A DNA stretch of 64,000 nucleotides from Eutypella sp. D-1 (taxonomy: Eukaryota > Ascomycota > Sordariomycetes > Xylariales > Diatrypaceae), in the NCBI GenBank assembly GCA_023313575.1, contig JAJTTP010000003.1:3470332-3534331 (forward strand). Reading direction: 5' to 3'. A model generated the notes under the pieces. It was not told the DNA's origin and searched no databases. It saw only the letters and a list, made by a program, of their open reading frames with translations. The position numbers were made by a program, and so were the translations under genes. Position 1 is the stretch's first letter. Each line of letters begins with the position of its first letter. Positions 422-38,815 of this stretch are shown here, one piece after another.

Positions 422-1628
422 CTAGCATAGCTCGCCTCTCAGCCGAGGAAAGAGAGGTAGCAGGTTGCTTCCAAGAAGCCAGAACTTGTTCTAGTTAATT
501 AAATGGACTTGAGCGATTGACATGCTATCATGGAGTCCACTCACCCCATACCAGCAGTACGAGACGTAATCGTCCTTTTCGTCATAGCTAGAGACGAAGC
601 CAGCTAGGCAGCGTAAACCTAGGGCAATGAACACGATGCTTGCGGCCACTGGTGGTTGCCATAGTGCAATCAAGCCAATTGTCCAAGCCGTAGTCATGAC
701 AGCGAGAGACCAACGGGCCAACGGCTGGGAAAGCAATAAAGGTATTGTTTTGCGGCCCATGGTGGCATCGGCAGAGCGATCACGGAAGTCCTGAGCGTGA
801 CCCTACATGATGTTATCTCGTACCAAGTCTCTGTTAGGGCGTATCACAGTCGCACCTACCGTGGTCGCGAATATGGCGCCTATCATGAACACAGCGATAG
901 CTTTCGAGCCACGCAGCTCCTTCCCGTGATCTAAGGAAATTTAAGCACATACCACATACTAGAGATGAATGGAATAATGGACCTACCAAGTATGATGGTG
1001 GTACCCCAGCAGTAACATGCGAGACCTATGGCTCCAATGATATTCTTCACGATGGGAATTGCAGCCAAGCCTCCTTCGTTGTATATCAGGATTGCAACCG
1101 AATAGGTCAGAGTGCACGGGACTGTGTTCGCATAGAAGGCTAAAGCCCACATCAGTGTAAATAACACGTAGTATAGTATACTTGCATTATCCAAAGATAT
1201 ACGGCCAGAAGGCAGGGGCCGATGCGGCTTTGCGATCCTATCTTCGTCTATGCCGTCGATCTGATAGGTGGAGTAAGTAGACTATCACATTCTATAAAGT
1301 TGAAGAACACACCTACCTGGTTCTTAACCTATTGCGATGTTGGTGAGTGTTTAGCCAAGCTCGGGAGGGAATCATCATGGGCATACCTGGAAGGTAAGCA
1401 AATGTAGTTGGTTCCAAAGAAATCCCTTCAATACCACGGGCAAGCTTGATGGGCCGGCGAGCACAAGGGCCACAGCCATCTACTCCGCGTCTAAGTAGCA
1501 GTCCTACAAAGCCATTGCGCAGTACATACTGAGGGTAATGTGGCAGCGGGGATATCAGATTTGCCAAACAGGTATAGAGTCTGAACGAACTCGACAAGTC
1601 GAGTTCCCATCCGAAAAGAATTCTGCAT
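422..1628 (-). CDS. UbiA-superfamily membrane enzyme, likely terpene cyclase (Fma-TC type)
   Basis: Integral membrane protein of the UbiA prenyltransferase/terpene cyclase superfamily; in the fumagillin pathway such a protein (Fma-TC) makes beta-trans-bergamotene from farnesyl diphosphate. Minus-strand exons read 1628-1530, 1479-1387, 1328-1317, 1260-987, 930-860, 802-545 and 490-422, giving about 291 residues. The first Asp-rich motif (NQIDGIDEDR, then KPHRPLPSG) is at about residues 67-86. The second (QDFRDRSAD, then GRKTIPL) is at about 187-205. Several hydrophobic segments lie between them, and the C-terminus ends in NLLPLFPR. Exon 3 is only 12 nt and supplies the Asn of motif 1. A TAG in frame near 803 lies in a 57-nt intron with a CCCTAAC branch site, so the gene is not broken. 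It is divergent from the P450 across 567 bp. It could instead prenylate an aromatic or other acceptor. Confidence 0.85.
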
Positions 1629-2195
1629 TGCTCGAAATCTCCAACTTGGTTAAATGCCAAACTTTCAGGATACAGACGCTGTCAACGTTTCCACTTCAAA
1701 CAATGCGAGCAGGCTAGGATGATGGCATTATATCCTCATTCACAACCAAACTTGTCAAAACCTGCCCGACTGCCCTTGCATTGTCCATACGATGACTTCT
1801 AATACATTTACGTCAACATGCGATTAGGTGGTGTTGTAATTTGTAACTATTCCTTGCAACAAAAGTACCGATTTCCTATTTGGGAATACCACCGAAGTCA
1901 TTACTGGCCGTTATTCAGTTAGTGGATTTTCGCCGATTAAAAACATATTTGGAAAGTTCCGAGGCCTCGTTGGGCCGCTCGCCGCTCCAACCAAGACAGC
2001 TCATCAAGTTCATGGTCAAATACGTAGCTGGGCCATAAATTCTCGCGGGGGCCTGACGGAGCGGGCAGTTCGTCTTATGCGACACTAGGTTTCTAAGATC
2101 GAAGCAGACGATACATGCAACTTCTCAAGAAGCTGCTTCTTATGCAAGACTTTATTCTTATCTGACTGGGGGCTCTATTTCCTCCCAAAGGCAGC
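1629..2195. promoter_or_regulatory. Divergent promoter between UbiA enzyme and P450
   Basis: The 567 bp separate two start codons facing outward, so both genes probably share one control region. It contains a perfect 10-bp palindrome CGAGGCCTCG at 1960-1969, of a form that could serve a dimeric Zn2Cys6 factor. No binding site is proven. Pairing of the cyclase and P450 on one promoter suggests co-induction. Confidence 0.6.
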
Positions 2196-3871
2196 ATGAT
2201 TCCTTATAATATCTCTGTTGAAGTCACCCTTGTGGCATCGATAGTTCTCATCGGTCTACTGTTGTATCAAAAACAATCAAGACGCAAGGGGAGGCTGAAT
2301 GTTCCTCCAGGGCCAACGCCCCTACCCGTTATCGGCAATGTATTCGACCTCCCGCCTAAAGGGGAGGCGGAATTCCTCCACTGGTTCAAGCACAAGGATA
2401 CCTATGGTCCCATCAGCTCGATCAATGTGATGGGTCTGACCCTCGTCATATTTCATGACAAAGACGTTGCATATGCCGTGATGGGAAAGAAGGCTCAGAA
2501 GACGGCGGCGAGACCGCAGTTGAACTTTGCCACGCTATGCGGGTTCGAAAACTTCCTCATAACTCATCAATACAACACCACATACCGCCTGCACAGAAAG
2601 ATGGTTCAACAGGAGATAGGCACCAAGGCACTGTCCGCGGGCTTCTATCCCATTCAGGAGAAGGAGGCCCTTCACTTTACCCTTCAGACTTTGCGTAATC
2701 CAGAGAATATCTTACAGCATCTTAAAACGTAAGTTCCATATACTTTCCATGAGGTCACGCAGAAATGAACCTAGTAGACTGATGATTCTCTAGTCTGGCT
2801 GCCTCTGTGATATTACAGATCACATATGGATATTCGATAGAAAGGAATGGGCCGGATCCACTTGTTAACCTGATTGAGCACGCAATGGAGAACCTATCCC
2901 AGGCCTTTGTACCGCTCTCTTGGGTTGTGGATGCGGTGCCCGCTATCAAGTACCTTCCCGACTGGTTTCCCGGCACGTCATACAGGAAAACTGCCCAGGG
3001 ATGGAGAGCGATCAATGAAGCAGCTGCAGAGCTCCCCTACTCATTCGTGAAGCGGCAATTGGCACACCAGACGCATCGGCCATCATACACGTCCAACTTG
3101 TTGGAGAAACATATGACAAAGACAGGCCACGACGTGACCTGGGCGTCGGAGGATGAAGAGGCTATCAAGTGGTCTGCGGTCAGCCTGTACGCCGCAGGCT
3201 CGGATAGTACTGTCGCCATCATTACTAGTGTCGTTCTTGCACTAGTTATGTTTCCCGAAGTGCAGGAAAGGGCACAAGAAGAGATTGACCGAGTTGTTGG
3301 CGCCGATCGACTGCCTAACTTCGCGGATAGAGAAAACATGCCTTATATGGATGGCATTGTGAAGGAAGCATGGCGGTGGAATCCCGTTGGACCAGTGGGC
3401 CTGACCCATAAAGCGGAAGAGGACATCATTTGCGGCGAATATATCATTCCCAAGGGATCATATCTCCTCCCCTCGCTATGGTGGTTCTTGCACGACCCGA
3501 AGGACTACTCGGATCCACATATTTTCAAGCCTGAGAGATATCTTGAACCCCTCAACGAGCCTGATCCAAGTGATCTCGCATTCGGCTACGGGCGTCGATC
3601 TTGTGCCGGTCGCTTCTTCGCAGACGCGAGCGTTTACATCACAGTCGCTCAGCTTCTCGCCGCATTCCAAATTCGCAAAGACAGGGACGTACACGGAAAC
3701 GAGATCCCCGTAAAGTTGGAGGCTGTCCCGGGAATGGTGAACCGCCCAAAGGAATTTCAATTTAAGGTCGAGCCCCGCAGTCCGCATCATGCCGACCTGC
3801 TCCGCCGCATTGAAGCAGTACAACAACCGGAAGCCAGCGATGCGAGTCTACTCAACATCAGCACAGTGTGA
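2196..3871 (+). CDS. Cytochrome P450 monooxygenase
   Basis: Two exons, 2196-2728 and 2794-3871, joined over a 65-nt intron (GTAAGT donor, TAG acceptor), give 536 residues, a usual length for fungal microsomal P450s. An N-terminal membrane anchor spans about residues 8-25, followed by the proline hinge VPPGPTPLPVIGN. The I-helix oxygen-activation motif appears as AAGSDST (about 310), the K-helix ExxR as EAWR (about 368), and the haem-binding loop as FGYGRRSCAG (about 440-449) with its Cys ligand. All key residues are present. The family level resembles the broad O-methylsterigmatocystin-oxidoreductase-like fungal group. Its place beside the UbiA enzyme parallels Fma-P450, which oxidises bergamotene repeatedly in fumagillin synthesis; that role is inferred here. 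A possible polyadenylation AATAAA lies at 3905-3910. Confidence 0.95.
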
Positions 3872-4180
3872 TGGAAAATGGTATTAGAGGCATAGCATCA
3901 CCGCAATAAACTAAATTATCAATTCAAAATGTCGTGAGGGCCGCGGCGTATTAAGTTTGCTAATGTGTAAGTACTTTCTGTTAATGCTTTGGAGAAGGTG
4001 ACATCGTCACGCTCTTGCTTAGGTAATCGCAAAACCCCACTATAGGGGCCGAGGGCATGGGTGCGGCGAATTCACTTCGTTATATTGGAACTCTATGTAT
4101 ATTGTTTAAGCTCCCCGAGCAACTCCTGTCACTATGAAATGAGCTGATAAGAAAACTTTCTTCCGCAATTGCTCCGAATG
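3872..4180. other. Convergent intergenic gap
   Basis: Short gap between the 3' ends of the P450 and the minus-strand regulator. Apart from an AATAAA just after the P450 stop, I see nothing in it. Confidence 0.5.
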
Positions 4181-5573
4181 CTACCTACGGGTAGTGGGAT
4201 GAATCATTTTCTGTAAGTCGTTGGACGCCATTTTCACCGTGGCGGCAGCGTCGCCCAGCAGCTTAAACGCCTTCGTTCCTCTTTTCATGTCATTCTCTAT
4301 ACCTCTCACGAGTATGTGAAGGTCCTTGAACTGCATACAGACTATAATATACGTGATTTCAGTGCCCAAGGCGGCGGATGAGACTTGGAAATTGCCCACG
4401 TGTATATCGAGGGTTGGCGAAAGGAAAGACGCGCCGTTTGTCGGCATGGCCTTCATATGTTGTTGCTGTGTCATAAGCTTACGGCATAGATCTTGCGACA
4501 TGGCGGCGAGCTTCTGAATGACCGTGACGACGAGTATCGGATGCGTGGTGCAGACAGAGCAGTAGTTGCATGATGAAAACTGCTTACACGCCACAATCCC
4601 GTCACGCATGGACCCGAGCAAGCCGTCCAAACTATTGTGCTGGCCAGCATTGCTATCGCCGTTGTCACTTATCCGCTCGAGCGTATCGGCAAGGTAACCT
4701 ATGCAGTTGCAACGTCGATCCTCGGATGAAACCACAGAGCTCGCAGCATCGTTGGCGGTCGCTGGTGGGGTTAAGACGAGGCTGTTTATCAAATACCCAT
4801 CTTTCTTAGATCCCATTCCTAGTGTCGAGAATTGAGGAGTGCTTTGAATTTCGGGTGCTAGTGGGGAAGGATGTGGGGTAGGATGTAGTCCTTGGTGATC
4901 TTTCAACGAGTCCATATTCCATTCTTGAATTTGCCCAGAAAACACGGGGTCCAACAAGATGGGTGCCCAGAAATCGTCCCTGACGTCGATTGTCAATGTC
5001 TGGTCTATTTCCATTGTCCCATGCGCAGATGTCTCCTGCCCCGTAGATCTGCAGTCAATATCGCTTCTTGCCCGTTGCTTCTTTGTTGAAGGCTCTGAAG
5101 GATACTTTGACCTTGATGATGACTGTCGCCGTCTTGAGCTTGAGGAATCACTGGTTCCGGAAGACGCAATGGCACATTTTGACATCGGATTTGTAGACCG
5201 GGTAGTATTTGATGTTCTATAGGTGCAAGTGACATGTGCTGCCTGGCATCGTGCGCACCCATGAAGGTCGCCGCTGCATTTAAGCTATTACCGTGGCCCG
5301 GTTAGTCTCAGCTCGAGGGCCCTTTGGAACCTCTGGGGTCGATCTGGTGATTTACCTTTCTTTCTCGGCACTGATCACATGCCTGAATATCCTGGATTAG
5401 CACTACAATCTTCTGCTAGATATGAATGTAATCTATAGGAAATAGAAAGAAACATTCAGAGGATATCTTACCAGCACAGTGTAGTTGCGCGCGTCTACGC
5501 CACTATTTCCGGATAGGTCGACATACTCTAGGTTATTTGACGCATTCTTACTGCAACGGAAAGCCCCAAACAT
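4181..5573 (-). CDS. Zn2Cys6 transcription factor, AflR-like
   Basis: Minus-strand exons 5573-5472, 5415-5356 and 5284-4181 give 421 residues. The zinc cluster is complete: Cys47, 50, 57, 64, 67 and 74 in perfect C-X2-C-X6-C-X6-C-X2-C-X6-C spacing, beginning ACDQCRERK. It is split by the 71-nt second intron between Lys54 and Leu55, so unspliced sequence shows only half of it. A Ser/Arg/Lys-rich linker follows. The C-terminal half has Cys pairs and a helical region (CNCIGYLADTLERI, then CNYCSVC) typical of the AflR-type regulatory domain that drives metabolite clusters. A 34-residue extension (MFGAFRCSKN...) precedes the finger, with a 56-nt first intron. It probably regulates the surrounding genes; its target motif is unknown. 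Confidence 0.88.
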
Positions 5574-7535
5574 GACTCAGCTTGATGACAATGATCCCTA
5601 TGGAAGAAGGGGCGTATGTTGAACAGGAAGTGGACGGACAGTGTGATGTGAGAACAAGTCTGATATTCAATATACTTCCTATATCCATTCAACTTTTAAC
5701 GGGCCATTGTTATGTCGTACTTATCACCCCATGGGCTGAGTCAGAAACAGCATACGGTAGTTAATCTAGGACTAGTTGATTGGTGGCGAACGAGTGGTAA
5801 TCCTATACTACCTAAGTAGGTACAGATCTTAGATGGCCGCTAGCTTGACGGTCCCGACATTATGGACCATACTACCCTCCTCCCATGCATGTCAGGCATT
5901 CGGTTCTCCCGATGATAATGTGTAGTTCTTGCCTATCATTTTCCTGCAGGGGCATGGGCCATAGTGTTTCATTTTGAATGACCAAAAGTCAGCGAGTGGT
6001 TAACTTGTGCAACTTCAAATGGTCGAAACATGGGGAGATGTGCGTCCCTCCTTATTCGGTTATTTCCCTTTTCTGTAGAAAACTGCTGACCGGCGTCGGT
6101 AGGTACTGCAGGCTTTTATTTCGAGTAGATAGCGAGTGGGGAAATGTAGTTTACCCAAGTATTTGGTACAATTTACCTTTATGCCAGGATGCTTTAAGTC
6201 AGCATAGTAAGTATAACGGGTTAGAAAAAGTGGTTGGTCATCGCTTTCCGTGAGGCAAAGTAGATCTAGATGCTATTGATGTCGTCGTTTAGTCGCAGGG
6301 TTGTATCTAAAGAATACAGCAACATTGACTATGCAGTGTACGAACCGTATTTGGTCAGAAGGACTTCCGGATGCTTGCCCATTTTGTACCTAGTATGGCC
6401 AGAATCTCATCTATTATACAGGACCACTTCCCCCGGGCTGGCCCGGGGCCATCGCCCGCGCTTTTCTTATATCACTCATTTACCACAGCAACGGCTGCAA
6501 AAAAGGGACCATCGCCGCCGTCGCCGCCGCCGCTGCGAATTACATAAGTATGAAAGTAAATAAGAAAGCATCTGCCGTTATATGTTTAGGCCTAAGCCTT
6601 ATAAGTGCTCCCCTTTTACTTACCGCAGCCGTAATAGCAACGCGTTATACTTACGCGACAGGGCTTATAGCAGGACCGGCAAACTAGGCCTGCGACTTAA
6701 AGGTTACAGGCCCTGGCGAGTGGCAGCAGGTGGTAGGTAGGAGGTGGCGGGTGGGGCCCTTAACTAAATAATGTTAGTACACTGCATAGTTAGCGAAACT
6801 ACATTGTACCGTTAGCGTTACTATAACGAATAGGGGTTGAATAAAATATATTAGGTCGGCGAATTTCATGACGCACTTGCTGGCACCTAGGTCGGCACCG
6901 AAGGATTTTGTTTTTGTTTTTTGGCTGGGGTTACTTACATGCAGGGCAAGGTGTTTGCGGGGCTGTGGGGTTGTTGCCAGGGGTTGAGGGGTCGAGAGTG
7001 TGGCAGGTCAATAGAATGAGGGGTTAAGAGGGTAAGGGGTTTCAGATGTTTAAGGCCCAAGGGGTGTGAAACTTGCATACATAGATACATATCAAATCAT
7101 CACATGCCTTGAAGAATACTTTCGCTTATGCGGAGTACTTTATTGATGGTTAGAACCTAGGTAGCTTACATCACAAGACGAGCAATAACATAGTGAGCAT
7201 GGTTACGACGAAATCTAGGCAAGATGGGGTTCGGCCATAGATTCGGTGTAGTAATTGATCAGGGAATTGTACCGAAGCCGAAGGATTAATAACTGGTATA
7301 GCATAGCATGTACATGGCATTGAGCACTAATCTATGTCACCAAGTCCCCGATTCTAATCAGCTTTGAACAATTATCTAATACGGGAAAGATTAGATTAAA
7401 GCCTCGAGCCAACCTGTTGCTTCTCTGCATGATGGTCTGAGGAATACAGGTACATATCGTCCTTGGCGCATCCGTCACATAGCCGCAGAATTTACCAACA
7501 AACTATTCTACACTTGCGTATTCAACCGTTACATC
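5574..7535. other. Intergenic, no gene supported
   Basis: Nearly 2 kb with only short open frames of no recognisable family. It contains a perfect GC hairpin at 6431-6448 (CCCCGGGC, 2-nt loop, GCCCGGGG), a CGC/GCC trinucleotide run near 6509-6536, and a G/T-rich stretch at 6900-7060. The motif CGGGAAAGATTAG at 7382-7394 recurs upstream of the methionine aminopeptidase. The right end should carry the promoter of the first dioxygenase. Confidence 0.5.
7382..7394 (+). promoter_or_regulatory. 13-bp motif shared with aminopeptidase promoter
   Basis: CGGGAAAGATTAG lies about 140 bp upstream of the first dioxygenase start and occurs again, identical and on the same strand, at 14807-14819 upstream of the methionine aminopeptidase. 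It is a candidate cluster regulator site; no factor is known for it. Confidence 0.35.
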
Positions 7536-8345
7536 ATGTCCACTGTCACTGAGGAAACTAAAGCACACCTCCGCGAGCACGGTTGGGTGAAAATTCCGTC
7601 AGTCCTCACCAAGGAAGAAACAGCACACGCTCTTGATCGACTATGGAAGGCGAAAGAATCGTCGGAGGCCAGCGGCGAGGATACGTTCCAGCCCGTCCTA
7701 GATCCTAACCCTTCTAACGTCAGGGTGTTTTACCTTCCAGAGCTCGACCAGTTATTCCGGGATATGCTCACGCATCCTACAGGCGTAGAGTTGACCAAGT
7801 CACTTCTGGGAGAAAAGTTCCTCGTCAGCAATTTCTCGGCAAACATCGCTCGCCCGGGCTCACAGAGCATGGCACTTCACTCAGATCAGAGCATCGTTCT
7901 CCCTGAGCCTTGGCTGGGAATATGGGCGGTGAACGTGATTTGGTGCCTCACCAGAACCACCAAGGAAAATGGGGCGACATTGTATATTCCCGGTTCTCAT
8001 AAATGGACTCGGTGGCAGGACGTTCCTGAGAATGCGCCTGATCTCTTGGTGCCATTTGAAGCCGATGCAGGAGATATCATCGTCCTCGACGGCCGTTTGT
8101 GGCACACGTCTGGAAGCAACATCACCAAGGACGAGGACCGCGCCGTTCTTTTTGCCTATTACACTGCGCCTTACATGCGGCAGTTGGTAAACTGGACCGC
8201 TAAATTGCCAAGGGAGCTTCAGGAGACACTGAGTCCCGAGTTGAAGGAGCTGTTTGGACTCAGTCATATTGGTTACGTTGTCCACGGTGACTTGAGATAT
8301 ATGGCTGATAAATATCCTGGTATTAAGGCAGGTGGCTCGTCATGA
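7536..8345 (+). CDS. Fe(II)/2-oxoglutarate dioxygenase, PhyH family (1)
   Basis: Single-exon gene, 269 residues, of the phytanoyl-CoA dioxygenase family. The facial triad is visible: His115 and Asp117 in LHSDQS, and His190 in LWHTSGSN. Arg202 (EDRAVLF) is a good candidate for the 2-oxoglutarate carboxylate anchor. The central ENGATLYIPGSHKW segment is characteristic of the family. The enzyme would use Fe(II), O2 and 2-oxoglutarate to hydroxylate or further oxidise a small molecule. Its place near a UbiA enzyme and P450 makes it a candidate counterpart of Fma-C6H, the PhyH hydroxylase of fumagillin synthesis. Family membership is firm; the substrate is inferred from context only. The start is the first in-frame ATG. 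Confidence 0.93.
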   Translation: MSTVTEETKAHLREHGWVKIPSVLTKEETAHALDRLWKAKESSEASGEDTFQPVLDPNPSNVRVFYLPELDQLFRDMLTHPTGVELTKSLLGEKFLVSNFSANIARPGSQSMALHSDQSIVLPEPWLGIWAVNVIWCLTRTTKENGATLYIPGSHKWTRWQDVPENAPDLLVPFEADAGDIIVLDGRLWHTSGSNITKDEDRAVLFAYYTAPYMRQLVNWTAKLPRELQETLSPELKELFGLSHIGYVVHGDLRYMADKYPGIKAGGSS

Positions 8346-9486
8346 CATCTCGACGTCCGCCAGTCCCCAGTGTACCAAGAGAGAAAACACCGGGGAGGGG
8401 GGAGGGGCGAACTTCCACTTTCCAAATCGCTAATAGCAGTCTACTAAACAGTATCAGAAAAACACTTATATCGATCATTTCATGATATTTATTGGGGATG
8501 CATAATAATATCCGACATCCCTTGGTGGTGTCAGCTCTGTGAAACGCATAGCAAGTTATCCGTAACTCGTAATACAAATAAAATAGGGGGCACACTTATA
8601 GCAACGACGAATACAAAATGATACGTAATGCCCACTATCACTCACAGGCTACGTATTCAACCACGACCCATTGGCTTCCCATCTAGCCAGAACTTAACTT
8701 TAACCAAGTAACGGTTCAGGGCTCTCATGTAGGAAGGCAGCGAGTAAATCCGTATTTGCCAAGACGGCATGGAAAATCTGACTTGGACTATCAAGACTAT
8801 CTACGTAATATGAAGCGCACCGCGATCCTTCGGTCTAAAAGCTCTTTTATTAGCTGCAGAGTTAAGTTGCTACCTGGAAGCCTTTTAGCATTAGATTATG
8901 AAAAGTTTTCAAAAGACGTACGACTGGACAGAGGTTGAATCAACTGTTAGCGACATAGTAAATCAGGTAGTTAGACTAATTGCGTAAATATCCTACAATC
9001 CTCACTATTGGGGCTAACAACATTCCCTGCTTCGGCCTTCGTAGACTCGGACGCACATGATGCAGCGACTCTTGTGCTGATGGGGTTTATAAACCTTCTA
9101 CAAAGATTTTTCTGTGTCTGGTACTGGACGTACTGGATGACCATCGCATCTAATTCGGTGTTACATGGATAGGGAGATGCGGTTATCCGGTGTTACGTAT
9201 ATATGTGTTTCGCGAAGTTTCCTAATTGGGTAATTTCCATTGGCCGATAAATATTCGGCCCATGTTGAAGAAATTCTCGATCGGGATTCGGCGTATGCAA
9301 ATTCTAAGAAGGTAAGTTAGGGATGGGAGCAATAACAAGATCGAAGCCAATGTGATAGCTGGAAATAAAAAACGGAAGGATTCCGCCATAGGGGAATGGA
9401 GTGAAGTTTACTTGGTGCAGATGTATTGACATTGGCTTTGCTATATCGCACGATAAAAATATTTTCTTGTACTTCACCACTAGACC
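8346..9486. other. Intergenic, presumed promoter of second dioxygenase
   Basis: A G-rich patch lies just after the first dioxygenase stop (8385-8408). Otherwise there are only short frames without family resemblance. The last 300 bp should hold the promoter of the second dioxygenase; no clear core element is seen. Confidence 0.5.
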
Positions 9487-10473
9487 ATGGATAAGCTACC
9501 AGAATCGATCCCCCCAAGCTACAAGCCTTCTGTTCGCATTTCCGAGCTACCAGCTAACTCGCCAATAGACGAGATCCTCTCAGTAATCGATCGCGATGGT
9601 GGCGTCATCATAGAGGACCTTGTCAGCCACGATGAGCTGGTTTCAATTGAAAAAGAGATTGAAAAATACACCAGAAGTAGCAGGGATGGATATGAGGGCT
9701 TCTTCAAAGGTTTGATGCCACAGGAGACCCTCTTGATCGGCGGTTTAGTGGGTAAATCCGATACGTTGGCTAAGATCTGCGAACACCCGGTACTCGAGGG
9801 GTTGAGGAGAGAGATCCTGACCGATCATGGCACGAGGCGAGTGGAGAAATACGACCTCCCTTATCACATCGACCCGCTGCTCTCAGCCAGCCTCAGCTTT
9901 CGCATTCGATATGGGGCGGCACGACAGCGATTGCATCGAGATGACGGAACACACTTGACTGAGCACGAGAGCAAGCCCTACGATTTGAAAAACTCGGCTC
10001 AATTCGGCTGCTTGATCGCAGGCGTTGAGACAACCCAGGCAAATGGAGCTACAATCTTCATACCGGGAAGTCATCGTTGGGATGATAAGAGGGAGCCGCG
10101 TTTAGATGAAATTACTTTCGCGGGTGCGACCCCCTCCGTATTTAATCTCTGATTGCCCGCCATCTTTTCTAACCATTCAGCAGAGATGAAGCCGGGCTCG
10201 GCCCTGATCTTTCTAGCCGCTTGTTGGCACGGTGCCGGGCACAACAGCGTCCCGGGCTTCACTCGCGTCCTCCACAGCCTATTCTTCTGTCGGGGAACCA
10301 TGCGTACGCAAGAGAATCAGTTCCTGGCCATTCCACGTAGCAAGGTTTTGAAGATGACCCCGAAGATGCTGAATCTGCTGGGCTATAAACAGCCCGCAGC
10401 TGCGCTTGGTATGGTAGAGAACGGGGATCCCATGTTGGATCTTGCGACTGTTGTTGCCGCAGCAAATATGTAA
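9487..10473 (+). CDS. Fe(II)/2-oxoglutarate dioxygenase, PhyH family (2)
   Basis: Two exons, 9487-10123 and 10181-10473, joined over a 57-nt intron (branch TCTAACC; an acceptor 3 nt further on also keeps frame), give about 309 residues. The facial triad is His150 and Asp152 (LHRDDG) and His229 (CWHGAGHN). The N-terminus (PSVRISELPANS, then DRDGGVIIEDL) and the NGATIFIPGSHRW block resemble the multifunctional dioxygenases of fungal meroterpenoid and indole-terpenoid pathways such as AusE and FtmOx1. It differs strongly from the other dioxygenase 1.1 kb upstream in N-terminus and length, so the two are not a recent tandem duplication. A second oxidative step such as ring cleavage, desaturation or endoperoxidation is possible; substrate unknown. 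Confidence 0.9.
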
Positions 10474-11618
10474 TGATTATTACTAAGTATTGAGCAATAA
10501 AATTTGTTCCACTGCACTCATCAGTCACTTAGTCCTAGGCTATTCTAGGCAAATACATCAGTGGCATGCTGGCTGGAAGCAGTCAGGTCACTAACACTCG
10601 CAGGCAACTTGTATCAATCAACAAGTCGTCCCAAACAAGCCCAAATAACTCAATTTGCCTGGTCGTGCCTAGCGCCACATGTCCGCTATACATCCCTCGG
10701 GTCGACAACTACTTGTATGCTTCAGCAGGGCAGCTTTCTCATGTGACAGCCTCTGTAGGGGCTCTGGCAGTTTCCTAGCCATTCCCATCGCAGTAATTGG
10801 CGGCTATCTACCTTCGAATCCATCACTCGCATATGTGTGAGAACCATCTCACCACGATGATAGTTATGTGGATAGCACATCATATTTACTCAAGTTCACT
10901 TATACTTATCAGCAAGATTAGTGAGCAGCCCCCGATTCTGCGATGCACGTCAGAATGCCTCGGCGTTCTGATGCAGCCAAGCTCCTGCTTACTATTCGTG
11001 TGTCGTGGCCCACGGTATACTTTGCTTGTGCTTTGGCTCCGTAACTCTATGGGGTTTAATAATCTTCGTCTGGGTATAGTTACACATAAAACATTTTAAT
11101 GAAAACTTCGGATACTTCCCAACATGGATATTCCCGATGTACATCCTTCCATAGTACATAGTTATAACTACAAGTGGTTGAACGGGTAAGCTAAGTTCTA
11201 GTGTAAGGGAATAGCCGTGCTCCCGTAGTTATACATACTAGTATGTTCATATAACCATATGACACCGCGTAAAGTAGCCGCCTAGGCACTAGAGTCCCTG
11301 TCCCTTTTAATGCCCTCTGTTTACCAAGTTGGCTGGCATTAAGAAGAAAGCCATGCATAAGGCTTTGGCGGAAGGAGAACGTATACACGATTTTCCCTTT
11401 CTGTTTAGGAGACGCCGCATAGTGCATCGATGATGTGCGATACTGGAACCATAGAGTTTGGAAGACTAGCAGCTTCGGTTTTACTGAGGAACGCTGTAGG
11501 ACGCCTTCTTGTGAACCCTTGTGGTAATACATAGGCTATTTCCCTGTACACTCGCGTATTCGGAAACCAGCACATAAGTGGGAGAGGCTGAGATCTCCCG
11601 CAAATATCTTAGTACACG
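10474..11618. other. Intergenic, promoter of second regulator
   Basis: Ordinary-composition sequence with a few short frames, none recognisable. It separates the second dioxygenase from the next Zn2Cys6 gene, both on the plus strand. I see no repeats or RNA gene. Confidence 0.5.
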
Positions 11619-13246
11619 ATGAGCATGTTCGTCCACGAGCTCGGTTTTTCCCGCCGGGCATGTGACCGATGTCACGGACAGAAACTTCGCTGCAAAAGGG
11701 ACAATAATACTCAGGGCTGTCTCCGCTGTGCAAGAGCCGGCGTGCAGTGCACTCCTAGGCCAGTCAGATCTCGACACCGCGCACGACCTCAGACCTCACA
11801 AGAAGCACAAACATATAAAACGAGCCAGGCACAAACCCAGCGTAAGTTCACCCGAGCTCCTGGTTAAAGAATGAATGAGTTAAGACGCTGACACCGTTGG
11901 AAGGAGACACCGCGATCGACCAGGTGGACAAAGAAGACACGGATAATTTCGACATCTCGCCTAGCTTTCTCGGTTTCCCGTCAGATCTAGATTTGGGACT
12001 GGACTCTTCTTCTCTTCAGTCGGAAGCCGGCCCGCTAGAGGCGAGTTATCTACTGGCAGACACGGAACATGCTACGGTACAAAGCCGGCAGCCCAATCAA
12101 GCGTATACTCATGATTCATCTCAAAGCAGCAGCATCGAGCCACCGCAGCAAGAAAGCCAAGGGGATCCTCAAAGCTCTTCTCGAGGATCGACTGCACTAT
12201 CATCCTTCATATCTACTTTATTGCCTTACAATGCGGAAGAGCTCTCAAATCACTCGACGCACCGGTTGCCACTTGCAAGGACCACGGTTCCAGATAGTCG
12301 AAATCAGCAATCCGAGAATAGGCCAACAACAGCTCATGGAATGAGCCTTTATCGACGGGAAAGTGTTACTTTTCCTAGTGATAGCGAAGACATAGGTACA
12401 TCATCTAGTTACGACCAAGCAGCCTCTAATCATTCACGGTCTGCCAGCAGCGGCAGCCAGATTGTCAGTGATAGGAGTCATCAGGACACAGAGCTATCGG
12501 CAAACCCGGTAATGGCATCCTGGGTCCGTCAACTGTCAGATATCAACGTCGAACTTCATCAGGACATGTTGTCGATACCCCCGGTAGAAGTGGGTCAAAA
12601 CCAGGGGACAAGGCTTGAAAATGGGGGGCAACGCAACGTCATCGGATACAGCCAGCCCGCGAAAAAGCTGGCGATTGATCGGACTTTTAAACTTTCACAA
12701 CAGTATACGGAGATGCTAAATCACATAGTGTCGCGTTGCAAGTCGCAGCAGGGCGGTACAGAACCGATGATGGCCACTCTCACCATAGACCAGCCCACGC
12801 AGTTGCTCGTGCTATCTAGTTATCTGTGCCTTGTTGAATCGTACGACAAAATCCTGCAACACATAAAAGGTTGGACCGAGGCTCGATTGACTCTGGGTGT
12901 ATCTACTTCAGACAATCAATTCCCAATCCGACTGCCCCGGTTAGCGATTGGCTCGTTTCAGCTGCCCTCATCCTCGTCGTCGGGGCCTCTAGTTCTAACC
13001 TGCATTATGGAGGCGATGATAAAAGATATGCATGATCTAGTCAGCGAAATGATGAAATCAGTTGTTACTGGAAATGAGGCATCACGGGCCTCCCACACTA
13101 CAGCTAGGGAGCAAGGAAGCAATGGCGGCGACGAACTTGGCAGTGTTGCCAAGGTAACACTACAGGCAATAAGGACAAAAGAAAACACCACTATGGAGCT
13201 CATACATGTAGTCTGGAGGCTTGCTCTCGAATGCGATATAATCTAG
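11619..13246 (+). CDS. Zn2Cys6 transcription factor (second cluster regulator)
   Basis: The N-terminal zinc cluster has Cys15, 18, 25, 34, 37 and 44 (RRACDRCHGQKLRC, then CLRCARAGVQC) in C-X2-C-X6-C-X8-C-X2-C-X6-C spacing. One intron starts at the GTAAGT at 11842. The best acceptor is at 11903, 12-15 nt after a CTGAC branch; acceptors at 11906 or 11879 also keep frame, so the linker is uncertain. With 11904-13246 as exon 2 the protein has about 521 residues. A long Ser/Gln-rich region follows, then a helical part (LVLSSYLCLVESYDKILQHI) of the kind seen in regulators of fungal polyketide and terpenoid clusters. By position it may correspond to FapR/FumR of the fumagillin cluster, but I cannot confirm orthology. 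Two C6 regulators in one locus suggest layered control. Confidence 0.85.
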
Positions 13247-14097
13247 CATCTGAAATAAATGCCCCTGACTTCACATTGAAGATTTATGTTCCCTCGGGAT
13301 TAGCGTTATCATCGGTACCGTACAGCTGTGATGCGGTTCCGAGACTGAGACGAAAAGACCACCGTTGTCGAGTAGTCAAGTTTAGCAATAAATTAATCCC
13401 AAGGGGGGGTCTGATAACCCCTCAATACAGATAAAAGCCTTCGTGGAGAAGGGAATATAAGTTCGGAGTCAGGCGATTTTGGTCCAACCCGAGAAGTTCT
13501 CGGCTTGTGTCCTTCAGTTACTTGGAAAGACTTGACAGCTTCTCTGGAGTTTGGAATATTCTAAAGAGATAGTTATTGCCTGCGTATATGGAATGCCGTC
13601 AAAGTAATGGAGAATGTGCTCTCAACTCACATAACGTCTGCGCTCAAGGTGAGCAAAACATAAAAATGAAAGAGAACTCGAATGTAATAGGGGTATATAA
13701 GCGGTTGGTATGCCGAGCACATATTGCATCGAGCGAATCCTAGTCTAATACCGATGTCAGAAGAGTGAAGGGCTGAAGTGCTCGAATACTTACAACAGCG
13801 ACTTGAATAGAACAACTCGCAATTATCTCATCTGGTTCACTATGTGGGTTTCGAGTCCTGCTTTATGTTGATAAGGAAGTAGTCCGGATTCTTCGCGGCC
13901 GAGAGGAAGTTGTTGGCACGTGTTCGATCGACGTTGTAGTTTGATGTTTCTGTCAGTGTTGTATGATATATGGATTGAATACCCGGGATGACCGAAATGA
14001 TGAGTAATAAAGGGCTGAAATCGTCGGGGGCCAAGCGGGCGTATCAGTAAGAGTCGGCAAGAAACCAGGCGGGTCTCAAATCCGCCGTCCTCATTTG

Positions 14098-14134
14098 GCT
14101 GCCAGGCGGAGTCGAAAATACTCCGCCTGGCAGC
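14098..14134. repeat. 15-bp perfect inverted repeat (hairpin)
   Basis: GCTGCCAGGCGGAGT is followed by a 7-nt loop (CGAAAAT) and its exact reverse complement. The stem is GC-rich and should be stable as DNA cruciform or RNA hairpin. It lies between the second regulator and the aminopeptidase. It could be a binding site for a dimeric factor with CGGAG half-sites, a transcript end, or a relic of a small inverted-repeat element. Confidence 0.7.
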
Positions 14135-14806
14135 TTGCTTGCTGTACTATGGGAGTACCTGCCTACTGAAGTTAGAATTCAAATAACAAGGTAAATAATT
14201 AAGAATATACGATATGGTTGGAATAATATATCGTTTACTTACTGATCATTGCCATTTGGCTGTTTCTATATCGATTTCTAGTCTTGTTAGCTATGTAAAC
14301 CCCGTCCGTTTCTTGCAGGGACCTCCGAGCGTGTCCCCCGGCGCGATGTCAACGGAAGGGCGTGGCCCCCACGGAGCTGATAATCGCCGTAGTTAGCGAA
14401 TAATACGGTAGATCGCATTGATAATAGTCGAACCAAACCTTTTAAACGGGCAATTCTTTCTCATATAAAAGAACGAAAAATAAAGCTTAATAAACCCAAC
14501 TAAACCATACGAATGTTCCCACCCTTGCGCGAACCGAATCATTCAGTAGATCCGGACCTGATGCTAGTGGCGGGTATTTACTCTGGGCTCAATTCTTCTT
14601 GGTCTAAATCCAGGCTATCTACGCTATAACTATTAATTTGAAATAAATGGCAGTTAGATAGATGTTCTTCTAGCGGAAACTTCGATTTATATCAGGGCTT
14701 TTTTTTTTCACTGAATTTTTACTGTTCTTCGATCTTTCTTTTAAACAAAATCATTTCGACTATAAATTATTTCGACTATAACTTGGGTATTGTTGGTTGA
14801 ATCATT

Positions 14807-14819
14807 CGGGAAAGATTAG
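14807..14819 (+). promoter_or_regulatory. 13-bp motif shared with dioxygenase 1 promoter
   Basis: CGGGAAAGATTAG, identical and in the same orientation as 7382-7394, about 340 bp upstream of the aminopeptidase start and just before the pyrimidine repeat. Candidate shared regulator site. Confidence 0.35.
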
Positions 14820-14850
14820 TGACTAAGAATTTTTGGAGCGTTTTTCAATC

Positions 14851-15013
14851 TTTTTTCGACTTTTTCAACCTCTCTTTCGACTTTTCAATCTCTCTTTCGA
14901 CTTTTCAATCTCTGTTTCGACTTTTCAACTTCTATTTCGACTTGTTCAAACTCTGTTTCGACTTTTCAACCTCTTTTTCGACTTGTTTAAACTGCTTTTC
15001 GACTTTTTCTTCC
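14851..15013. repeat. About 20-bp pyrimidine-rich tandem repeat
   Basis: About eight imperfect copies of a unit built around TTTCGACTTTTCAA with a CTCT spacer, at a period close to 20 bp. The array ends about 150 bp before the aminopeptidase ATG and merges into a C/T tract, so it probably lies in the promoter or 5' leader. Pyrimidine tracts are common in strong fungal promoters, but a regular array with a TTCGAC core is unusual. Confidence 0.75.
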
Positions 15014-15160
15014 CTCCCTCCCTCCTATTTCTTTTTCTTTCGATCTTAATTTGTTCCCTCCCACCCTCCACTTTTTCCAACTATTATATGCTTCCCCCCT
15101 TGCAGCGCTTTGTATACATCCCATTCGACAACCGCCTATGCTTGATCTTGACAAGATAAA

Positions 15161-16578
15161 ATGACTGGCAACTCATCAGAACCACTATCTAAGAAGAAAT
15201 GTCTTGGGGTAGATTGCGAAAATGAGGCCGGGTCCTTGCAATGCCCGACGTGCCTAAAGATCGGCGTGACCGATAGTTTTTTCTGCTCTCAGGATTGTTT
15301 CAAGAAGAACTGGGTTCGTTTGTGCATCCCCATCGAACGAAGAACACAAACTAACAAGTGCCCACCTAACCGTAGAACCAACATAAAGCCTTACACAAGA
15401 CGGCGCAAGGCCAGCCGCAAAATGGTAGTGTGTACCAAGGATCCCCCCCGGAAGGCCGTCTTTCTAAACCCGATCCAGCTACCGGGTTCTATAACCCTTT
15501 CCCGACCCATCCTTTTACCGGCTCCGTTCGGCCTGTCTACCCACTTTCTCCGAGACGTGCCGTCCCTAAGTCGATACCGCACCCTGACTATGCCAAATCT
15601 GGCATACCGAGAGGAGAGCAACGCCTAAATAGGGCCAAAATCGATCTTCTTGACGCCAAAGCCCAGGAGGCGATGCGCAAGGTTTGTAAGTTGGCCCGCG
15701 AAGTACTGGACATCACTGCCGCGGAGCTTAAGCCGGGCATAACCACGGATTACCTTGATGAGGTCTGTCACAAGGCTACCGTGGAACGGAATGTAAGCGC
15801 ACGCCCGAATTTAAGATGGCATTGGGTGAAGCCTAACTGTGTCAGTCGTATCCCTCGCCCCTCAACTACAATGGCTTCCCCAAGTCCCTGTGTACTTCTC
15901 CGAACGAAGTTGTGTGTCATGGAATACCCGACCAGCGGGTACTTTTAGATGGCGATATCATCAATCTGGATATCTCGATATATCACGAGGGCTACCACGC
16001 TGACCTCAACGAGACGTATTATGTGGGGGATCGGGCCAAGGCGGACCCAGACTCGGTCAGAGTCATTGAAACGACACGGGAGTGCTTGGACAAGGCTATT
16101 GAGATTGTGAAGCCTGGTACACCAATACGAGACTTCGGCAAGGTCATCGAGAAGCATGCCAAATCCAGGGGTTGTAACGTTGTCGCGACATGGGGTGGTC
16201 ATGGCATCCATACTGAGTTCCATCCCCCGCCATGGATACCTCATTATGCCAAAAACAAGGCAGTGGGAGTCTGCAAGCCCGGGATGGCCTTCACGATTGA
16301 GCCTATACTTACGCTAGGCAAGCCTCGTGAGGTGTATTGGCCAGATGACTGGACGAATGCGACTGTCGACGGTATGCGGACTGCTCAATTCGGTACGTGG
16401 GAGACTATGGTTGGGTTAGTGGACGGCTGCTGACATATGTACAGAACATACTTTGCTTGTCACGGAAACAGGTGTTGAGGTTTTGACTGCGAGGCTTGAG
16501 GATTCCCCTGGGGGCGCGGTACCAATGCCCGCGCCTGCGGATATGGCAGTAGGAGCCAACGGCGAAGCTAAAAGTTAG
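15161..16578 (+). CDS. Methionine aminopeptidase type I, candidate self-protection copy
   Basis: Removes the initiator methionine from nascent proteins. Exons 15161-15313, 15376-15792, 15846-16392 and 16445-16578 give 416 residues, near the usual length of eukaryotic MetAP1. An N-terminal C6H2 zinc finger (Cys14, 19, 28, 31, 42, 46, His54, 58) marks type I. The metal ligands are intact: Asp232, Asp243, His309, Glu342 and Glu373, the last created by splicing. His215 in VCHGIPD matches the histidine that fumagillin alkylates in this enzyme family. The pocket wall is unusual: the common YCGHGI is WGGHGI (306-311), FHTAPN is FHPPPW (315-320) and TSVNEV is TSPNEV. This suggests a diverged paralogue rather than the housekeeping gene. 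The fumagillin cluster carries MetAP genes thought to protect the producer; the same role is inferred here. Confidence 0.93.
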
Positions 16579-19069: not shown

Positions 19070-19167
19070 ACAGGCTATCGGCATTCACGCGCTCGCACAT
19101 GCCAAGAGGGAAGAGAGCTCCTAATCCATGTTAACACTGGATTTTGAACGGCAGATCAATAATAATC

Positions 19168-21245
19168 ATGCCTCATATCAATATCTTTGGCCGCGGCTTC
19201 AAGCTGCGCGCCGCCATCACCATCGCGTGCCAGATGGCCTTCATCCTATTCGGCTACGACCAGGGCGTTTTCAGCGGGATCGTGGGCAATGAGGATTTCC
19301 TTGAGACGTTCGGCCACCCGAGTCCCTCACTAGAAGGCATCATAGTCAGCATTTACAACCTCGGGTGCTTCTCAGGCTGCATTCTCTCCTTCATGTTCTG
19401 CGAGAAAACGGGCCGCAGGCTGGCCATGTGGATCGCTATGGTGTTCATCATCGTAAGTCAATTCGCTCCACGCGAGACACTTGTAGCCCGAACCGTGCTT
19501 TACTAAGACTCATTCCTATACTTTCCGTGATAGATCGGAGCCATCCTCCAGACGACCGCCTCTACGGTCCCGCATATGATGATAGCGAGATATGTCTGCG
19601 GAATTGGCACAGGGATCGAGACCTCGACCGTCCCTATGTACCAGTCAGAACTGTGCGAGGCTGATAAGAGAGGGAGACTGGTAGCCTCCGAGCCGCTTTT
19701 CGTGGGCCTGGGGATCGAGATCGCATATTGGTTTGACTATGGTATGAGCTTCACGGCGGGTTCCATCGCATGGAGACTGCCCATCGCATGCCAAATGATT
19801 TTTGCTATCGTAAGTTAACAAGCCCGTTCCCATTGAAACGTAACTGGCCGGTGATTTACATTGTACGATGCAGTTCGTGATCTTGCTGGTATTCGGTCTC
19901 CCCGAATCTCCCAGATACCTATATAAGCATGGGCGTCATGAGGAAGCAATGGAGATCCTTTGTCAGGTCTACGACGGCACACCGAACGACCCAAAGATCG
20001 CCAAGGAGCACCAGGAGATCTTGGACGCGCTCAAAATAGAACAAGAGCATGGCGAGTACAAGTGGTCGCAGCTCTTCAAGAAGGACGAAATTCAGACCGG
20101 CCGGAGAGTCCTGCTTGCGTACGGCATGCAGTTCATGAACCAGATGGGTGGCATCAACCTCGTCGTGTGAGTGCCATTCGTGCCAGTGCCCTAAATATGA
20201 GGCGAGGCTGACAGCCCTGCAGGTATTACATTACCTCCGTTCTACAGATCAACGTTGGGCTCGACCGAAACCTGTCTCTGCTCCTGGGAGGTGTCATTAA
20301 CGCCATGTTCTTCATCGGATCTCTTTTCCCGACATTCTTCCTCGACAAGTACGGGCGACGCAACCCGATGATTTGGGGTTCGTTGGGCCTAGGTATTTCC
20401 ATGATGATGATCTCGATTCTTCTTAGCTTCCAGAGCCGGGGCGGTGACTTAGCTCAATCGACCTCCAAGGGCAGCGTGGCATTCTTCTTTACGGTAAGCA
20501 ACAGCTTTGACCCCTAGGAGCAAGTTCGTCCTTCTGACTATTTTGCAGTACATGCTCATATTCGGCATGACCGCCAACTGTATCCCTTGGTAAGTGAAAA
20601 CCGAGTCTATTTACTGGAAACAGATTTCGTGGTTTATTAGCTGGGTGTCGCTTTGTCAACTAGACATGGGTCCTACATGATTATAGATGTTCAATGGTGA
20701 CTAACTCAACGCGTAGGGTTTACGTTCCTGAGATCCTGCCGCTGCATGTACGCGCCAAGGGAACCGCTGTGGGTATATCTTCCAACTGGCTATGGAACTT
20801 CTTCGTAAGTAACCTCATCTCCTACTCAGAAGACGTCAAAGCTTCCATGGCAGCTCCCGTCTACCTTTGCGCAAATGTAGTCACTGGCATGGAGGTTCAT
20901 ATGCCACATTTACTAACTGTACGATTTCCGCTTTTTCTTCAGGTGGTTATGATTACGCCCACGCTCCTGAATAGCCTGAAGTGGAAGGGATACCTGATCT
21001 TCATGGTGCTTAACTTCGCTTTCGTTCCGCTGGTATACTTCTGCTACCCGGAGACTTCCAACCTGACGCTCGAGGAGATCGACGGCTTGTTCCTGGAGCC
21101 GCACGCCGTCCGGACCAGTCTCCAGGTCGCCAAGCACGGCTGGTCGGAGGAGAGCGGCTGGGCGCAGCGGCGCGCCCTCGCGCACCAGACCAAGAGCAAC
21201 GAGCAGATAGAGAAGGAGGAGGTGCAGCATGTGGGTGAGAAGTAG
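19168..21245 (+). CDS. MFS sugar-porter family transporter
   Basis: Seven exons (19168-19452, 19534-19809, 19874-20166, 20223-20493, 20549-20589, 20717-20804, 20943-21245) give 518 residues, the usual length for fungal hexose/quinate-type porters. Each junction restores family sequence. Visible motifs are FGYDQGVFSGIV in helix 1, GRRLA after helix 2, PESPRYLYKHGR at the central loop, INLVVYYITSVL around helix 7, DKYGRRNPM after helix 8, and FCYPETSNLTLEEID after the last helix. The last two introns are long (127 and 138 nt) for this locus. The C-terminal tail is polar and Lys/Glu-rich. It sits 2.6 kb beyond the aminopeptidase on the same strand. It may import sugar or a related polyol or acid and need not belong to the metabolite locus; drug exporters usually belong to a different MFS branch. 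Confidence 0.92.
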
Positions 21246-37450: not shown

Positions 37451-38815
37451 TTACCTTGGTATTCCTAACAAAAACTTAACAAGACGAGGATTCTCCGGCT
37501 TGCTGTGCTTGCCGTGCTTGCTGCCACTGGGTCTGTGGCCTTTGCTAGATTTTCCGGTTTTCTCAGCCTCTTCAGCCTTCTCAGCCTTTTCAGCCTTCTT
37601 CTTTTCGGCCTTTTCGGCCTTTTCGGCCTTTTCCCTTTCAGCTTCTGCAGCCTTTTCGGCTTTTCTAGCCTTGAGATACTCCTCTATGAGCCGTGTCAGT
37701 ATCATTTACGATCCTCTGCGGGCATTGTAGCTCAATGGCTTACCGGAAGCAAACATCGCGAATGTTTCGGCATTATCCACTGCCTTTTCGTGGGGAAGCT
37801 TTTTCAACCTATGGAGCTCGTACGCGTAGTCCCCAGCCGGGGGGTCTCGTATTACACTTAGATGGGTCATCTCGTGTATCATGTAAGAGGCCAGGCTTCC
37901 TAGGCTGAAATCTTTCTCTTTTGGTTTAACGCGTCTTGTGCCCTTAAAGAAAACCGGACACAGGACGATAGTGCTGTAGTAATTCAACGCCGATGCAAAA
38001 ACTGTTGAGGTAAGAGCAAGTAGTCCGAAAGTCAGCAACATCTCTTCCTGCTGATGGACACACGAAACCTCGAAAGAGGGCCTTCGACACGAGCATCTGG
38101 ACAATCCAGATCTACCGGATAAAACTGTGCTATCAGAGAAAAGGGGTTTGTTTCTTTTTTTGGGGGGGGGGGGGGGGGGTATTGTCGGGCTGAGAGTGGA
38201 ACAGGAAGGAGTATGATAGGAAGATAGCAAAAAGAGCAAAGTCTCCACAACTGTGAAGCCTTATCTGCTTGCATGGGCGCTTGTGAGGTACTTACCGTAG
38301 ATCCGTGAGGGGTCTTTAAGTGTTTCTGGATCTAATATACTTTTCGTGTACTCATCAAGCACACAACCCATCTGCCCGGTAGGATCTATCTTATCCTGAC
38401 AGAGAATGTTCGTTTTCTCCGGGTCATTGTGGCCGCCACACTCATTTACGATTTCTTGAAAGACTGTAGCGACATACGTTCGGATGTCCTGGTCGTCACT
38501 ACGGAACCAGTTTTTGACGTTCGTATTGCTCGGGTCTTCTGCGGCGCGTTTGCCGTGTCCAGCTATTACCTCACACCAATATAACACCTCTTCTACCAAT
38601 TCTTTTTTGCCGGTGTCAGAATCACACTCGGAAAGGGTCGCACGTCGTGAGAGGGCCCCGGATCGGCGCATAATCGATGATTCGGAGTCGTATGTGATGG
38701 CTTCGTTTTCCTCAGAGGATAGTGCTGCCCTCTCGAAGAGGTCTGTAGGCGACGCAGGACTAGGCCTGACGAGCGTAAGGCCCATCTGAGTTAATAAAAA
38801 CCATCGCATATACAT
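37451..38815 (-). CDS. Secreted-type HExxH metalloprotease (M35/aspzincin-like) with KAE tail
   Basis: Minus-strand exons 38815-38296, 38111-38064, 38001-37744 and 37683-37451 give about 352 residues. The N-terminus (MYMRWFLLTQMGLTL) may be a signal peptide, followed by a Ser/Glu-rich stretch and a cysteine-containing domain. The catalytic part reads YMIHEMTHL (His232, Glu233, His236), then GDYAYE, where Asp247 would be the third zinc ligand as in aspzincins, then DNAETFAMFAS, the usual NADTYA-like end of the domain. After this comes an unusual tail (276-352) of Lys/Ala/Glu repeats (KAEKAEKAE...) then a Lys/Ser/His-rich end. The first intron (184 nt) holds an 18-bp C run. The stop at 37451 is part of AGGTAAGA, a possible splice donor, so a further exon cannot be excluded. 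Confidence 0.78.
38162..38179. repeat. 18-bp G homopolymer in protease intron
   Basis: A run of 18 G on the plus strand (C on the transcribed sense) inside the first intron of the metalloprotease. Such runs are slippage-prone, so the length may be a sequencing estimate. Confidence 0.85.

Follow-up and report, generated by a model that had tools for sequence, protein, structure and literature searches.

Ovalicin retains the ketone and carries no polyene. In fumagillin biosynthesis, Fma-TC and Fma-P450 are described as producing a keto epoxide, Fma-C6H and Fma-MT as introducing the methoxy group, Fma-KR as reducing the ketone, and the polyketide synthase (PKS), the acyltransferase (AT) and ABM as serving the polyene ester (PMC7020470). 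Both compounds are presented as known inhibitors of the methionine aminopeptidase MetAP2 (PMC7020470, PMC10648944). The 12-hydroxy-ovalicin cluster of Metarhizium robertsii is described as lacking FmaB, FmaC and FmaE and as encoding the putative oxygenases mFmaF/F', and on that description PKS-free ovalicin production is already in print (PMC9600275). For Metarhizium anisopliae, the published gene list includes a P450, a pair of phytanoyl-CoA dioxygenases, methyltransferases and two MetAPs whose type is not given (PMC5088523). A scheme given for Pseudallescheria boydii, whose ovalicin cluster is annotated, runs through a terpene synthase, a P450, a dioxygenase, a methyltransferase and further hydroxylation (PMC8877094). 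Here a locus of the fungus Eutypella sp. D-1 is compared with these systems. It lies in the final 64 kb of contig C23 (3,534,331 bases), the stretch called the window below, and comprises seven genes between positions 422 and 16578. With evenly balanced confidence, we regard it as a biosynthetic cluster that lacks a PKS and makes an oxygenated sesquiterpenoid of the ovalicin/fumagillol type, and in which an extra type I methionine aminopeptidase (MetAP1) provides bypass resistance.

All seven genes had been named in an earlier note made from the letters of this DNA, and gene models together with Pfam searches find them present and intact:

422..1628, minus strand: UbiA-type terpene synthase gene, 289 aa, seven exons (splicing, Pfam, motifs and tree), with six introns of 50-60 bases at 1480-1529, 1329-1386, 1261-1316, 931-986, 803-859 and 485-544
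2196..3871, plus strand: cytochrome P450, one intron at 2729-2793, Pfam p450 in both gene pieces
4181..5573, minus strand: Zn2Cys6 regulator 1, 420 aa with an uncertain start codon, Zn_clus 31.9 bits
7536..8345, plus strand: PhyH-family dioxygenase 1, 269 aa, intronless, Pfam PhyH
9487..10473, plus strand: PhyH-family dioxygenase 2, 308 aa, intron at 10124-10183, Pfam PhyH
11619..13246, plus strand: Zn2Cys6 regulator 2, 510-529 aa owing to an uncertain intron acceptor, Zn_clus 22.6 bits
15161..16578, plus strand: type I methionine aminopeptidase paralogue, 416 aa, four exons, introns at 15314-15375, 15793-15845 and 16393-16444

Introns were set by hand from consensus splice sites and continuous reading, and with this splicing none of the seven models contains an internal stop. 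The end coordinates of the cluster match stop codons, at 422 for UbiA on the minus strand and at 16578 for MetAP1. Profile searches covered the genome at 48.5 Mb in 72 contigs, and kinship to known clusters was judged by gene class only. By class, the ovalicin-type gene set is present, with a UbiA-type synthase, a P450, two dioxygenases and no PKS.

The UbiA-type protein is a non-canonical enzyme and, judged from its sequence, belongs to the motif class that has been described for Fma-TC and EriG. Pfam UbiA covers its residues 31-270 with 89.7 bits. A motif I of the form NXXX(G/A)XXXD and a motif II of the form QDXXDXXXD are reported for UbiA-type terpene synthases, including Fma-TC, EriG and Tps1A (PMC9835599), and the window protein fits both, with NQIDGIDED and QDFRDRSAD. 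PF01040 gave 19 rows in the genome, counted as 17 genes. Six of these are canonical (one COX10-like, five with NDXXDXXXD), and the other eleven, the window gene among them, have QDXXDXXXD. Cyclases of the BibS/Pb_BisA type have the UbiA family and the QDXXDXXXD motif II in common with the window protein; they differ in motif I, which in Pb_BisA is given as NQRHPGSVAED, with the D ten residues after the N (PMC11745945). The same distance of ten is found in nine other QDXXDXXXD genes of this genome, against eight in the window protein. Thus the Fma-TC/EriG spacing occurs only in the window gene among the ten with a readable motif I, that of the remaining QDXXDXXXD gene (C10:497187, a fragment) not having been recovered. 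In a tree of 16 rows, with this fragment left out, a split supported at 100/100 puts the window protein and nine other non-canonical rows on one side and the six canonical rows on the other. Grouping with ordinary prenyltransferases, which the earlier note would have counted against its proposal, was therefore not observed in the part of that comparison which was run. The closest solved structures are an archaeal DGGGP synthase (4.6e-6), followed by chlorophyll synthase (0.0051).

Elsewhere in the genome, on contig C28, another UbiA-type gene (minus strand, 31,160), a P450 match (plus strand, 33,792) and a PhyH gene (47,269) lie together without an M24 row, a group that represents a possible second terpenoid cluster. 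The divergent arrangement of UbiA and P450 to which attention had been drawn is real in the window and not specific to it, as it recurs in this group.

The aminopeptidase carries an N-terminal zf-C6H2 domain (63.9 bits) and Peptidase_M24 (120.1 bits), and NCBIfam TIGR00500 types it as type I (273.8 bits; cut-off 171.35). Its best solved MetAP1 chains are 8bqd (E 2e-127), which we take to be the yeast enzyme, and 9fq0 (1.7e-124). All seven presumed active-site residues, assigned by motif, are kept. The 15 M24 rows of the genome, all inspected, comprise two MetAP1, one MetAP2 (C5:516851), one Spt16-like protein and otherwise Xaa-Pro-peptidase-like proteins, and a genome search queried with the window MetAP1 found two MetAP1 genes only. 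The window gene is thus not the sole MetAP1, a situation that the earlier note would have counted against its proposal; a housekeeping copy resides at C12:529426-530995, and the claim that the locus carries an extra, divergent gene of the target family holds. Of 410 aligned positions, the two copies have 289 in common (70%); they share their exon limits near residues 51, 190 and 372, and are about equally similar to the 8bqd enzyme, with 197 and 206 identities in 363 positions. A. fumigatus is reported to have three MetAP2 and two MetAP1; the latter, a housekeeping enzyme and fpaI of the fumagillin cluster, are 65.2% identical (PMC12584730).

Two observations bear on how such a gene may protect its host. 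In the MetAP2 of the fungus, the second residue ahead of the metal Glu is Ala (FAIETF), and Thr stands at the matching site in both MetAP1 copies (FTIEP in that of the window); the human MetAP2 change A362T at this site is reported to give resistance to ovalicin and fumagillin (PMC10648944). In addition, wild-type yeast is reported to grow with fumagillin and the map1 deletion strain not (PMC7020470). Given the yeast data and the Ala to Thr difference, the simplest reading would be that an additional type I enzyme serves as a bypass.

The window copy also shows changes of its own. Sixteen positions at which the housekeeping copy, 8bqd and 9fq0 agree are altered in it, as compared with nine such positions in the housekeeping copy, and R304A, Y306W, C307G, N320W and M344I lie close to metal-binding residues. 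Clustering at the active site, tested on the 15 changes within the catalytic domain, gave p values of 0.16, 0.15, 0.09 and 0.02 at half-widths of 3, 4, 5 and 6. Faster evolution of the window copy was considered and set aside, the rate difference between the copies being not significant (chi-square 1.59 and 1.72). Just upstream of the gene, a tandem array of four copies with a unit of about 41 bases occupies 14842-15007.

As regards the oxidative enzymes, the P450 contains FGYGRRSCAG, presumably a heme-motif-like sequence, and a search of solved structures with this protein returned none at 1e-60. The solved relatives of the first PhyH protein are all distant (DhiD 4.4e-14, SptF 1.9e-13). The second resembles the swainsonine dioxygenases SwnH1 (1.1e-89) and SwnH2 (1e-77), with the best non-Swn structure at 1.6e-19. 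The query in this search was a 314-aa model, six residues longer than the final one; the match to SwnH1 spans its residues 3-313, i.e. the whole length, and 87 of 201 residues are identical in the first two alignment blocks. PhyH genes are scarce in the genome, with nine rows in all, and this window holds two of the nine.

Of the genes that would be expected for fumagillin itself, several were not seen. Ketoacyl-synthase gave 72 rows genome-wide, none in the window nor within 2.7 Mb to its left; the rightmost row on C23 ends at 693,845, 2.78 Mb left of the window. The lack of a PKS stated in the earlier note is therefore correct, and extends far to the left of the locus. By the same rows, which leave no candidate for the swainsonine SwnK near the window, there is no pseurotin PKS-NRPS (nonribosomal peptide synthetase) core gene nearby, other pseurotin genes not having been searched singly. 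ABM is represented by one row in the genome, on contig C72, and none near the window. Transferase PF02458, in which the membership of Fma-AT is unconfirmed, has 15 rows, none on C23. The methyltransferase was also listed as missing in that note, and here the result differs: a Methyltransf_2 gene is located to the left of the window, at a distance of about 17-19 kb. Taken together, a single synthase and P450, a pair of dioxygenases, a distant methyltransferase and the lack of a PKS make up what an ovalicin-type product would require. Since the M. robertsii ovalicin cluster, as described, also lacks the PKS, acyltransferase and ABM and has two oxygenases, the missing genes appear to suit an ovalicin-type product better than decay. 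It is consequently not necessary to invoke a reduced locus, the unseen genes being largely those dispensable for such a product.

Compared by gene class only, the locus resembles the M. robertsii mFma sub-cluster (12-hydroxy-ovalicin) and P. boydii Pbo_Ova in its UbiA-type synthase, P450, more than one oxygenase, C6 regulator and, should the gene behind the repeat block belong to the cluster, O-methyltransferase. As here, no FmaB-type PKS is described for M. robertsii, and MetAP genes also appear in the M. anisopliae list. Both ovalicin clusters are described as intertwined with pseurotin genes, whereas no pseurotin core gene lies near the window, and no counterpart of the hydrolase or the acyltransferase that appear in the P. 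boydii scheme was recognised in it. Further differences are the two regulators, the SwnH-like second dioxygenase and a MetAP1 without MetAP2. With the A. fumigatus fumagillin/pseurotin supercluster (Afu8g00370-00520), as published, the locus shares a terpene cyclase, a P450, a dioxygenase (there the C6-hydroxylase), a MetAP1 (fpaI) and a C6 regulator; unlike it, the window has no PKS, ABM or MetAP2 (fpaII) nearby. New in this locus are therefore the lack of a pseurotin core gene nearby, MetAP1 without MetAP2 and the SwnH-like dioxygenase. Among the open-licence papers that the literature searches listed, none describes a fungal cluster with MetAP1 alone in its title or the opening of its abstract.

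The surroundings of the cluster contain the following recognised genes:

-18.7 to -17.1 kb relative to the window, minus strand: O-methyltransferase gene, the first beyond the left AT-rich block
19135-21245: sugar transporter, several exons, the next recognised gene to the right of MetAP1
37709-38830, minus strand: aspzincin (M35) metallopeptidase gene, in two frames

The DNA of 422-16578 has normal G+C and is flanked on both sides by AT-rich blocks, the left from about -17 to -1.7 kb (15 kb) and the right from 50 to 64 kb, up to the contig end. The best matches between the two blocks measure 5.8, 5.7, 4.2 and 4.0 kb at 85-87% identity, two of the four being inverted; the composite index of repeat-induced point mutation (RIP) is 0.85 and 0.82 for the blocks and -0.36 for the cluster, and the longest stop-free frames in the blocks have 80 and 104 codons. 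Both blocks look like RIP-mutated transposon nests, with no transposon gene identified in them. As the left block is a likely transposon nest, the leftward continuation of the cluster would be interrupted. The O-methyltransferase on the far side of this block is a candidate for the suggested extension past the left edge. This gene, searched as pieces and not as one full spliced model, matches Pfam Methyltransf_2 with 57.1 bits and has mpaG' (1.7e-26) and lepI (2.5e-23) as best solved relatives. With 25 Methyltransf_2 rows in 48 Mb, the chance of one falling within 20 kb is about 2% by hand estimate, and the gene may belong to the cluster and have been cut off by the AT-rich block. Between the AT-rich block and UbiA lies roughly 1 kb of DNA (window about -1600 to -500) whose G+C is normal and which has no long open reading frame; it may be a relic. 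No further pathway genes were seen by eye right of the sugar transporter, where some of the reading frames were searched against Pfam, and the final 500 bases of the contig contain neither TTAGGG nor CCCTAA.

On this basis, a pathway can be proposed, in which the bergamotene chemistry is assigned by gene class. The UbiA enzyme, acting in the membrane, would cyclise farnesyl diphosphate to bergamotene or a related compound, from which the P450 would make an epoxidised ketone skeleton, and the two PhyH dioxygenases would add hydroxyls, one of which might be methylated by the O-methyltransferase beyond the repeat block. No polyketide chain would be attached. The product would block the only MetAP2 of the fungus, and the extra MetAP1 would maintain the removal of N-terminal methionine.

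Several observations weigh against an ovalicin-type cluster protected in this way. The branch of the window UbiA protein is long (1.91) and its identity to any paralogue is at most 29% over the alignment, so that its product could be a different terpene; for FmaA and the corresponding Metarhizium protein, 76% identity is reported (PMC9600275). Its NCBIfam matches are ordinary UbiA models, weak and all far below cut-off. Because a UbiA-P450 pair with PhyH 16 kb off is present on C28 without any MetAP, the arrangement is not specific. Among solved structures the second PhyH protein is closest to the swainsonine enzyme SwnH1 and, from its sequence, would be SwnH-like. The O-methyltransferase sits behind a 15-kb repeat block, and the adh_short search for a ketoreductase (KR) covered only 19 of 280 candidates, with none of its 20 rows on C23. 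The change to Thr is also reported without significant fumagillin resistance in Entamoeba MetAP2 (PMC10648944). In one A. fumigatus data set, fpaI (-0.282, p 0.633) and fmaE are reported not to have fallen with the cluster, whereas fpaII did (-5.196) (PMC4209032). A shared promoter word was considered as a sign of co-regulation and was not used, since it is not firmly beyond chance. Within 114 kb, one 10-mer occurs solely upstream of UbiA/P450, PhyH2 and MetAP1; dinucleotide shuffling produced a 10-mer common to three of six promoters 25 times out of 500, sets of real windows contained one in 54 of 500 cases without overlap and in 181 of 400 when overlap was allowed, and shorter shared words did no better (8-mers 165/500, 9-mers 23/500).

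The low identity and long branch of the UbiA protein lead to a different proposal, namely a UbiA-type terpenoid cluster off the bergamotene/ovalicin line, with a product such as bisabolene or bisabolol and with MetAP1 as an unrelated neighbouring duplicate. It is possible, if on balance doubtful. Bisabolenes are reported as products of UbiA-type enzymes elsewhere (PMC9835599, PMC11745945), and some other UbiA-type genes of this genome lie near P450 and PhyH (C28), Methyltransf_2 (C12:3466789) and ketoacyl-synthase (C12:3797561). MetAP1 is moreover separated by about 1.9 kb from its closest neighbour in the cluster and lies near a contig end. This proposal nevertheless has to account for the Fma-TC/EriG spacing, confined to the window gene among the ten readable ones, and for the recurrence of a MetAP beside such enzyme classes in the A. 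fumigatus and M. anisopliae lists. The repeat blocks might instead point to a decaying fumagillin-type cluster that lost its PKS, acyltransferase and ketoreductase on transposon entry, the remainder being leftover. A 15-kb AT-rich, RIP-like block does abut the UbiA side, with the O-methyltransferase behind it, yet all gene models of 422-16578 are intact and no PKS relic was found on C23 right of 693,845, where a relic mutated to less than 20% G+C would escape detection. We consider decay unlikely.

The remaining explanations concern the aminopeptidase. The product might attack MetAP1, or both types, with the MetAP1 of the cluster serving as a resistant target with an altered pocket and not as a bypass of MetAP2. 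No MetAP2 is present in or near the cluster, and the 16 window-specific changes against nine in the housekeeping copy, several near metal-binding residues, are in keeping with it. However, their clustering at the active site is not firm (p 0.02 to 0.16), the rates of the two copies do not differ significantly, and fumagillin and ovalicin are described as MetAP2 inhibitors; this explanation seems to us very unlikely. In its fuller form, a free-standing MetAP-directed cluster whose sole protective gene is a naturally resistant, pocket-altered MetAP1 and whose product inhibits type I or both types, it is rated improbable. If it were true, the locus would provide a naturally occurring inhibitor of MetAP1 together with an adjoining gene for resistance to it.

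The ovalicin/fumagillol-type reading with bypass by MetAP1 remains the one that we prefer. MetAP2 inhibitors of the fumagillin type are described as being of medical interest, and the role of MetAP1 in such clusters as unsettled. A small cluster without a pseurotin core gene or MetAP2 would be a test case for whether MetAP1 alone suffices for self-tolerance, and could show which dioxygenase adds the hydroxyl separating ovalicin from the fumagillin line. The locus may therefore serve as a resistance-gene-guided lead toward a possibly new MetAP inhibitor.

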